Origin: Candidatus Nitrosopumilus sediminis
Lineage (GTDB): Archaea > Thermoproteota > Nitrososphaeria > Nitrososphaerales > Nitrosopumilaceae
Direction: 5' to 3'
Assembly: GCF_000299395.1 (NCBI RefSeq)
Contig: NC_018656.1
Location: forward strand, 1,612,001 to 1,676,000
DNA length: 64,000 nt
The notes below the pieces were generated by a model that was given only the letters and a program-made list of their open reading frames with translations, was not told the origin of the DNA and did no database searches. Position 1 is the stretch's first letter. Every line of letters begins with the position of its first letter. Below, in pieces: positions 33,584 through 35,062 of the stretch. The translations under genes were made by a program, and so were the position numbers.

Positions 33584-33719
33584 TAATGTTCAGACTCAAA
33601 TTCGTAATTTATAGATCCATTAGTTGATGAATAGATATCAAAAATTTCATAAAAAATGATGATTTTATATGAAATTTAATGTTAAATCTTAAATACTTAA
33701 AGTTACTATAATAATTAAT

Positions 33720-33846
33720 GTCGAAAGATATAATTGCTATCGACTAAAACTGCGTAGCCCCGCAGAACGAAAAAGGTGATCAGGCGTTAAACGACTGACA
33801 AAGAGAGGAAATCTCTCAGTGTTCTGTAGCAAAGGGGTATACGCCT
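33720..33846 (+). ncRNA. candidate structured non-coding RNA
   Basis: A GC-richer island in AT-rich sequence, with several possible helices: 33720-33724/33740-33744 (GTCGA/TCGAC), 33750-33754/33761-33765 (CTGCG/CGCAG, loop TAGCCC), 33782-33787/33841-33846 (AGGCGT/ACGCCT), and 33803-33807/33813-33817 (GAGAG/CTCTC). The last is capped by GAAAT. Alternative pairings also exist: CAGAAC 33763-33768 with GTTCTG 33821-33826, and CCCC 33758-33761 with GGGG 33834-33837, giving a possible pseudoknot. TTAAATACTT (33689-33698) is a TATA-like box about 25 bp ahead, and T-rich sequence follows. The strand is my best guess; no long ORF covers it. It matches no RNA family I know. Confidence 0.5.
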
Positions 33847-33847
33847 T

Positions 33848-34297
33848 TTAATTTTCTAAAATATCTACAGATACAGAACCCATAGTTTCTCCATTTGGAT
33901 GAATAGAAATTAAAATTTCCTGCGTTTCAGAAATGAAAATCTCTTTATCTCCATCATAATTCCATGTAAAATATTCAGATATTGCAGTTTGGTGTGATGT
34001 GCCTATTAACTTAAAATCTTCAGAAAAATCAAAAGTATCTCCATTCAGAGTAATTGACAAAACTTTTGGGCTGCTTCCATTTGGAACAAATCTGAAAGTA
34101 TATTTCCCTTGCTCAAGAGAAAATGAATCACTATACACCCCATTAACGTAAAGTTTAGGATCTGCAAGTGTTACATGAAATATGACATTATTTTCCTCAT
34201 CAGATTCATCTGATGAGAAACTGACTATCCCAACTATGATTATCAAAATTACTGAAATTATGACTATTTTTTTATTCAATATTACATGCATTTTCAT
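33848..34297 (-). CDS. membrane-anchored extracytoplasmic hypothetical protein
   Basis: A 149-residue protein with one N-terminal hydrophobic helix (about 9-25, KIVIISVILIIIVGIVSF) and no clear cleavage site. An acidic spacer (SSDESDEENN) and a beta-rich domain follow (VIFHVTLADPKLYVNG, GKYTFRFVPNG, KEIFISETQEILISI). It is probably exposed outside the cell. The family is not recognised. Its stop directly abuts the RNA candidate. Confidence 0.55.
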   Translation of the reverse strand: MKMHVILNKKIVIISVILIIIVGIVSFSSDESDEENNVIFHVTLADPKLYVNGVYSDSFSLEQGKYTFRFVPNGSSPKVLSITLNGDTFDFSEDFKLIGTSHQTAISEYFTWNYDGDKEIFISETQEILISIHPNGETMGSVSVDILEN

Positions 34298-34414: not shown

Positions 34415-35062
34415 ATGCCTAATTTGTCTGATAAATGGTCTAGTCAGCCTAAACCTAGTGTTACTGAAAAAATTAATGATACAATCAAACCTAAAGGCCC
34501 CTTGAAACCAAGAGTTCAAGAAGGAATTAAAAAATTACAATTACAAATTAAAAAATTAGATTCTATGTTGACAAATCTACAAAATCGCGATGCAAAGTTG
34601 TTCCAACGAATTGTAGAAGCAACACAAAAACATGATACTCAAACAACCAAAGTTCTTGGAAATGAATTAGCAGAAGTTAGAAAAGTTACAAAGATCTTGA
34701 GTGGCGCTAGAATAGCCTTAGAACAAATTGAATTAAGACTAACAACATGTAGTGATCTTGGAGATACTGTGGTAGCAATTATGCCAACAATGGGATTGAT
34801 GAAGAATCTCAAATCATCCCTTGGAAAAATTATGCCAGGAGCAGAGCAAGAAATTAGTCAAATGGCTGAAATGCTTGGAGGTTTTATGACAGAGAGTTTC
34901 TCTGGAGATGCAGCATTTGGAAATGATGCAACTACCAGCGCTGAATCTGAGAGTATTTTGAAAGAAGCTGCTGCTGTTGCAGAAAGTTCAACAGGTCAAA
35001 TGTTCCCATCAGTTCCTTCAGATGCAACTTCACCAATTGAAACAACCACAAAGTTTTACTAA
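34415..35062 (+). CDS. cdvB: CdvB-type ESCRT-III/Snf7 protein (paralog 1)
   Basis: A 215-residue helical protein: basic helix 1 (PLKPRVQEGIKKLQLQIKKLDSML), helices 2-3 (RDAKLFQRIVEATQKHD...NELAEVRKVTKILSGARIALEQIELRL), and the acidic C-terminal helix (SESILKEAAAVAESS) before a Ser/Thr tail. This is the Snf7 core of archaeal CdvB, which polymerises at the division site. A close paralog is at 59311-59961. No Vps4 (CdvC) or CdvA is in the window. No winged-helix C-terminus is seen, so it is of the short CdvB1/B2 class. Confidence 0.9.
   Translation: MPNLSDKWSSQPKPSVTEKINDTIKPKGPLKPRVQEGIKKLQLQIKKLDSMLTNLQNRDAKLFQRIVEATQKHDTQTTKVLGNELAEVRKVTKILSGARIALEQIELRLTTCSDLGDTVVAIMPTMGLMKNLKSSLGKIMPGAEQEISQMAEMLGGFMTESFSGDAAFGNDATTSAESESILKEAAAVAESSTGQMFPSVPSDATSPIETTTKFY

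Follow-up and report, generated by a model that had tools for sequence, protein, structure and literature searches.

The GC-rich island at positions 33,720 to 33,846 of the window (the whole 64,000-nucleotide stretch of Candidatus Nitrosopumilus sediminis DNA analysed here) belongs to a real structured RNA, which is encoded on the plus strand and is broader than the first-pass annotation reported. The gene has its own promoter motif, a conserved 5′ open reading frame, a covarying fold and a stand-alone genomic context; it is distributed through one archaeal family, and the cores of its paralogous copies evolve in concert. Its main feature, a conserved leaderless mini-ORF, was missed by the first-pass annotation. 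There is, in our judgement, an even chance that the element is a leaderless, translation-coupled, trans-acting RNA gene of this single family, made as a stand-alone transcript of about 133 nt and with a function that we infer from the patterns described below.

The base composition and folding of the locus confirm the island. GC content is 0.44 in the island and 0.16–0.38 in the adjacent 120-base windows. On the plus strand the fold reaches −40.4 kcal/mol (z −4.1) and beats 200 of 200 shuffles, with a weaker fold on the minus strand (z −3.0). The first-pass annotation had placed the island, a TATA-like box for a plus-strand transcript and the distance to the next plus-strand ORF (which starts at 34415, 569 bp away) correctly, but the true start of the element is an ATG two bases before the one it gave (Table 1). 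The ORF that follows (34415–35062) has a weak match to Snf7 (ESCRT-III), under the Pfam cut-off, and probably encodes a CdvB-type cell-division protein.

Table 1. Features of the RNA gene and its convergent neighbour, in window coordinates.
Feature	Position	Strand	Basis or remark
Archaeal TATA-type promoter box TTAAATA	33689–33695	+	Alignment conservation; start codon 28–30 nt after box start in most members with a recognised box
Leaderless 9-codon mini-ORF ATG...TAA, peptide MSKDIIAID	33718–33747	+	Mini-ORF in 117/117 distinct members
Hairpin P0 within mini-ORF	33720–33744	+	Window fold; mini-ORF folding against shuffles; pairing register varies between genera
P1, 5′ strand (GCGTAGCCCC)	33752–33761	+	Covarying helix; starts 4 nt after stop codon
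P2, 5′ strand (GCAGAAC)	33762–33768	+	Covarying helix
P3 hairpin	33780–33798	+	Strong sequence variation, pairing preserved
P4 hairpin GAGAG-GAAAU-CUCUC	33803–33817	+	Lower pairs covary; inner pairs and loop frame G..U near-invariant
P2, 3′ strand (GTTCTGT)	33821–33827	+	Covarying helix
P1, 3′ strand (GGGGTATACGC)	33834–33844	+	Covarying; 3′ CGCC at least 99% conserved
T-rich tract, where the transcript probably ends	33846–33855	+	TTTTAATTTT
Whole proposed transcript, ~133 nt	33718–33850	+	Deduced from promoter spacing and T-rich tract
Convergent neighbour gene, 149 aa	33848–34297	−	No Pfam match; ends at 3′ end of the RNA

In the core of the RNA, a long closing stem (P1-P2), which is very stable in folding, encloses two hairpins, P3 and P4. 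Judged from the alignments, the covariation support for this fold is decisive. Among 27 divergent sequences, 92.1% of cells are paired and 17 of the 27 pairs show two-sided changes, values reached by none of 500 shuffles, and pairing falls to about 41% when the partner is shifted by one column. The corresponding values for 93 distinct sequences are 94.8% and 20 of 27 (again, 0 of 500 shuffles reach the scores); this alignment was fitted to the model, and the 27-sequence test is the less circular of the two. An unsupervised, APC-corrected covariation scan ranked the known pairs at the top together with one nested extension of P3. G-U cells number 109 and A-C cells 36, which favours the plus strand. 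A structured RNA in this orientation is supported. Conservation of the P2-P3 loop is restricted to the genus. The loop of P4 (33803–33817) keeps an invariant frame, G-N-N-N-U, in nearly all members, and a TTTT run follows within 20 nt of the core in 79 of 117.

The first-pass annotation proposed riboswitch-like switching, in which two pairings, CAGAAC/GTTCTG (33763–33768 with 33821–33826) and CCCC/GGGG (33758–33761 with 33834–33837), compete with a CTGCG/CGCAG hairpin (33750–33754 with 33761–33765). Both pairings are present and are backed by the comparative data. The competing hairpin can indeed form in the sequence, but it does not covary: its pairing of 71.1% lies below the shuffle mean of 72.1%, it has one two-sided change, and it is at or below shuffle level on all measures; the switching model is not supported. 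A possible pseudoknot had also been suggested, and the unsupervised scan returned no pseudoknot pair and no strongly covarying Watson-Crick pair beyond the known or nested ones.

Upstream of this core, all 117 distinct members, from many genera, carry a mini-ORF whose stop codon ends 2–5 nt before P1. When the start nearest to the TATA spacing is chosen, the mini-ORF has nine codons in 101 members and eight in 14, with starts of ATG (109), GTG (6) or TTG (2) and stops of TAA (70), TAG (25) or TGA (22). Within the nine-codon set, the first base of the start codon changes solely from A to G, and the stop position takes UAA, UAG and UGA, never UGG. Under a first-order Markov model that treats related sequences as independent, the chance of an ATG-started ORF of 8–9 codons ending near the core is about 1.35% per element. 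The encoded peptides are unrelated across genera (for example MSKDIIAID, MLVKPQKMA and MAEKSAHMT), and ORF pairs one sense codon apart show 2 synonymous and 19 non-synonymous steps, with 3.75 synonymous steps expected (21 steps, not all independent). On the sequences compared, the amino-acid sequence is not visibly constrained by purifying selection, which would suggest that the act of translation is conserved and not its product. Part of the nucleotide conservation is due to hairpin P0, as the mini-ORFs fold at a mean of −6.5 kcal/mol compared with −2.1 kcal/mol when shuffled, and it is conceivable that the AUG and URR are RNA motifs instead of codons. Genera g31 and g34 have an additional copy type (L136, L138, L140, L142, L145 and L147) with the mini-ORF MQKD[VA][KR]STA, and the TATA pattern used did not match there.

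The element is widespread within its family. A DNA search of 100 related genomes detected it in 58, all of the window's own genus and often twice. A covariance model built from near members (R1) extended it to 15 genera of the same family and found two copies in each complete single-contig genome of the window's genus, while a second model, built from divergent members (R2), had matches in 159 of 300 genomes of the class, every one from the window's family and together spanning 17 genera, with no match outside the family in the R2 search of 300 genomes of the phylum. This family, assigned by record titles, is the Nitrosopumilaceae, in which the covariance models place the RNA in nearly every genome, usually in two copies; Nitrosopumilus, Nitrosarchaeum and Nitrosomarinus predominate in the titles of the pattern matches. 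The element also occurs on contigs under the labels Hyphomicrobiales, Chitinophagaceae and Nitrososphaeraceae (L227, L232 and L169), which are probably mis-binned to judge from their Nitrosopumilaceae-like flanks, which match the DNA of this archaeon. A permissive search of 34 match-less genomes, most of them from other families, gave two weak matches (E ~0.1), which by eye are rRNA and coding sequence with neither TATA box nor mini-ORF and were rejected, as was a pattern match in Pseudomonas putida that had no covariance-model match. No copies were found in viruses and plasmids at the sensitivity used. Searches of open-access papers yielded no description of this RNA; one paper mentions a 'conserved noncoding RNA' in N. 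limnia, with no sequence in its main text (PMC3043068).

The ancestral copy sits between a divergent gene, which in the window encodes an SDR-family dehydrogenase, and a convergent gene that has homologs downstream in 50 loci across genera and usually ends within 12 nt of the RNA. On the minus strand, a terminator-like hairpin (33750–33765, CTGCGGGGCTACGCAG) is followed by TTTT and may serve the convergent gene. Second copies are found at other sites, next to different genes, and comparison of neighbourhoods across copies and genera revealed no conserved downstream gene, the usual neighbour being convergent. Thus, a cis riboswitch is unsupported and a free-standing RNA, which the first-pass annotation had raised as an option, is favoured. 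The second copy in this genome (C1:701693–701791; L031:2194–2292) has its own promoter and a different mini-ORF, MSLVVKSGD, and downstream of it lies a convergent 363-aa gene that is probably PurP-like, judged from sequence alone. Genome G289 has two tandem copies about 300 bp apart (L095:1195–1283 and 1501–1591).

In 11 two-copy genomes, the two cores of a genome resemble each other more than randomly paired cores do (0.860 vs 0.822, p = 0.0015) and are up to 99% identical, whereas the mini-ORFs show no such excess (0.639 vs 0.648), even though each mini-ORF type is well kept inside its own copy lineage (0.86 and 0.88). Paralogue cores therefore evolve in concert and mini-ORFs stay copy-specific; the core behaves as a shared module and the 5′ end as a copy-specific one. 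Three same-genome pairs (L044/L042, L047/L048 and L017/L032) have cores that are 96–99% identical and mini-ORFs that are 60–70% identical, a pattern that looks like gene conversion confined to the core.

None of the known RNA classes compared accounts for the element. An Rfam search and a covariance model built from homologs were among the checks proposed by the first-pass annotation; the homologs covary, and no Rfam family explains the RNA. Rfam 15 gave no match in the window at the gathering threshold, and a permissive threshold at the site returned just unrelated, sub-threshold snoRNA chance matches, the best with 19.1 bits vs a threshold of 75. ARAGORN detected no tmRNA, and no tRNA-like domain was found. 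The genome's SRP RNA and RNase P RNA genes are located at other loci, above cut-off, so both identities were rejected. An H/ACA guide RNA was discarded since a T-rich or variable tract comes after the conserved 3′ CGCC and no ACA is conserved, and a C/D box guide RNA since no RUGAUGA/CUGA set is conserved across members; the UGAU..CUGA of the window lies in and beside P3, whose sequence varies. Nor does the RNA resemble a riboswitch class, as it does not occupy a conserved 5′ leader of a regulated gene and the competing CTGCG/CGCAG hairpin lacks covariation, or an attenuator leader ahead of an operon with sensor codons, there being no operon and no conserved codon. It is like a trans-acting attenuator leader in architecture only, having a short ORF and RNA structure on one short predicted transcript.

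We postulate that transcription starts at or beside the 5′-terminal AUG and produces a leaderless message, on which a ribosome would initiate at the AUG and terminate after nine codons. Once the stop codon is in its A site, the footprint of such a ribosome would take in the ORF hairpin (P0) and P1 up to half its height. Constrained folding with a ribosome in this position predicts that P0 and the lower half of P1 melt, at a cost of about 12–21 kcal/mol, and that P2, P3, P4 and the remainder of P1 can persist. Because the footprint at the stop overlaps lower P1, translation and full closure of the core would be mutually exclusive by geometry. Most likely, the core would then act in trans as a regulatory RNA, with translation of the mini-ORF gating its folding, stability or partner binding, and core activity would thereby report ribosome or initiation status; two copies would amount to separate promoter and ORF inputs with one shared output. 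Since the ORF retains its start, length and stop whereas its peptide can vary freely, we infer that the signal is translation itself, with the core as effector. It is tempting to go further, and to suggest tentatively, as a somewhat doubtful proposition, an archaeal class of RNAs in which a leaderless mini-ORF, fixed in length and free in sequence, is a built-in ribosome sensor, its translation opening the RNA's own closing stem and switching a trans-acting structured RNA, and in which the copies supply different transcriptional inputs to the same output.

The same features could be read in other ways. Perhaps the RNA binds ribosomes, with a ribosome that initiates at the leaderless AUG being held by the stable P1 near the last codon; the RNA would then serve to sequester or park ribosomes. 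In length the ORF roughly equals one ribosome footprint, P1 begins 5–8 nt past the last sense codon, close to the spacing of known stalling structures, the P1-P2 stem is very stable, and P4 of most members contains GAGG, resembling the putative complement of the 16S 3′ end. However, some members have lost GAGG and kept the P4 stem, so that anti-SD pairing is not a general feature and an anti-Shine-Dalgarno role for P4 was rejected, and a pure roadblock has no need of conserved P3, P4 and 3′ CGCC; we consider this explanation unlikely. Or, perhaps the element is a plain trans-acting small RNA, whose 5′ mini-ORF merely adds stability or arises incidentally from leaderless transcription. That would suit a stand-alone gene with strong core covariation in which cores, not ORFs, evolve in concert, but an incidental ORF would decay, and the start, near-constant length and stop are kept in every one of the 117 members, which makes this quite unlikely.

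The presence of the ORF in every member, and the similarity of peptides inside one copy type (MSLV.KSGD, M.KD.I.ID), might instead indicate that the gene encodes a functional peptide of 9 aa and that the structured RNA is its 3′ UTR. This is hard to credit, given that synonymous changes are not in excess (2 vs 3.75 expected), that genera share no motif and that the peptides of paralogues differ. Even less plausible, and largely refuted, is a cis-acting riboswitch or attenuator for an adjacent gene: although a leader-peptide-like ORF precedes a structured RNA, and one genus has a copy 79–97 nt upstream of a same-strand gene that is CorA-like by sequence, the ancestral copy has a convergent neighbour, the gene found downstream varies between copies and genera, and the proposed switching hairpin does not covary.

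Abundant marine ammonia oxidisers are found among the Nitrosopumilaceae and, to our knowledge, little is known of the regulatory RNAs of this family. Nearly all of its genera have a structured RNA that always comes with a mini-ORF, about nine codons long, in which the amino acids are apparently free to vary. If the translation-coupled, trans-acting reading is true, the gene would provide a clean natural example in which translation serves as a signal and not for its product, and it offers a testable prediction for a leaderless translation system. It is also a concrete new RNA family for annotation, absent from Rfam.

A structured RNA with a short reading frame is not without parallel. The trans-acting attenuator leader rnTrpL of Sinorhizobium meliloti, whose leader peptide peTrpL is reported to be active in trans (PMC7298713), is likewise a short transcript on which RNA structure comes after a very short ORF. 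It heads a biosynthetic operon and its peptide is functional, whereas here there is no operon and neither codon content nor peptide is conserved. Like tmRNA (ssrA), the element is a structured RNA bearing a reading frame of about ten codons, but its own 5′-terminal AUG opens the ORF, no tRNA-like domain was found and the peptide is unconserved. SgrS/SgrT and SR1 are dual-function small RNAs, stand-alone RNAs with an embedded small ORF as here, with peptides that are longer and selected; in the present RNA the start, length and stop alone are kept. The orphan structured classes OLE, raiA and ROOL share with it strong covariation, restriction to a clade and a function that is not obvious from sequence. 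We know of no obligatory leaderless mini-ORF abutting the closing stem in those classes, and it is this arrangement that distinguishes the RNA described here.
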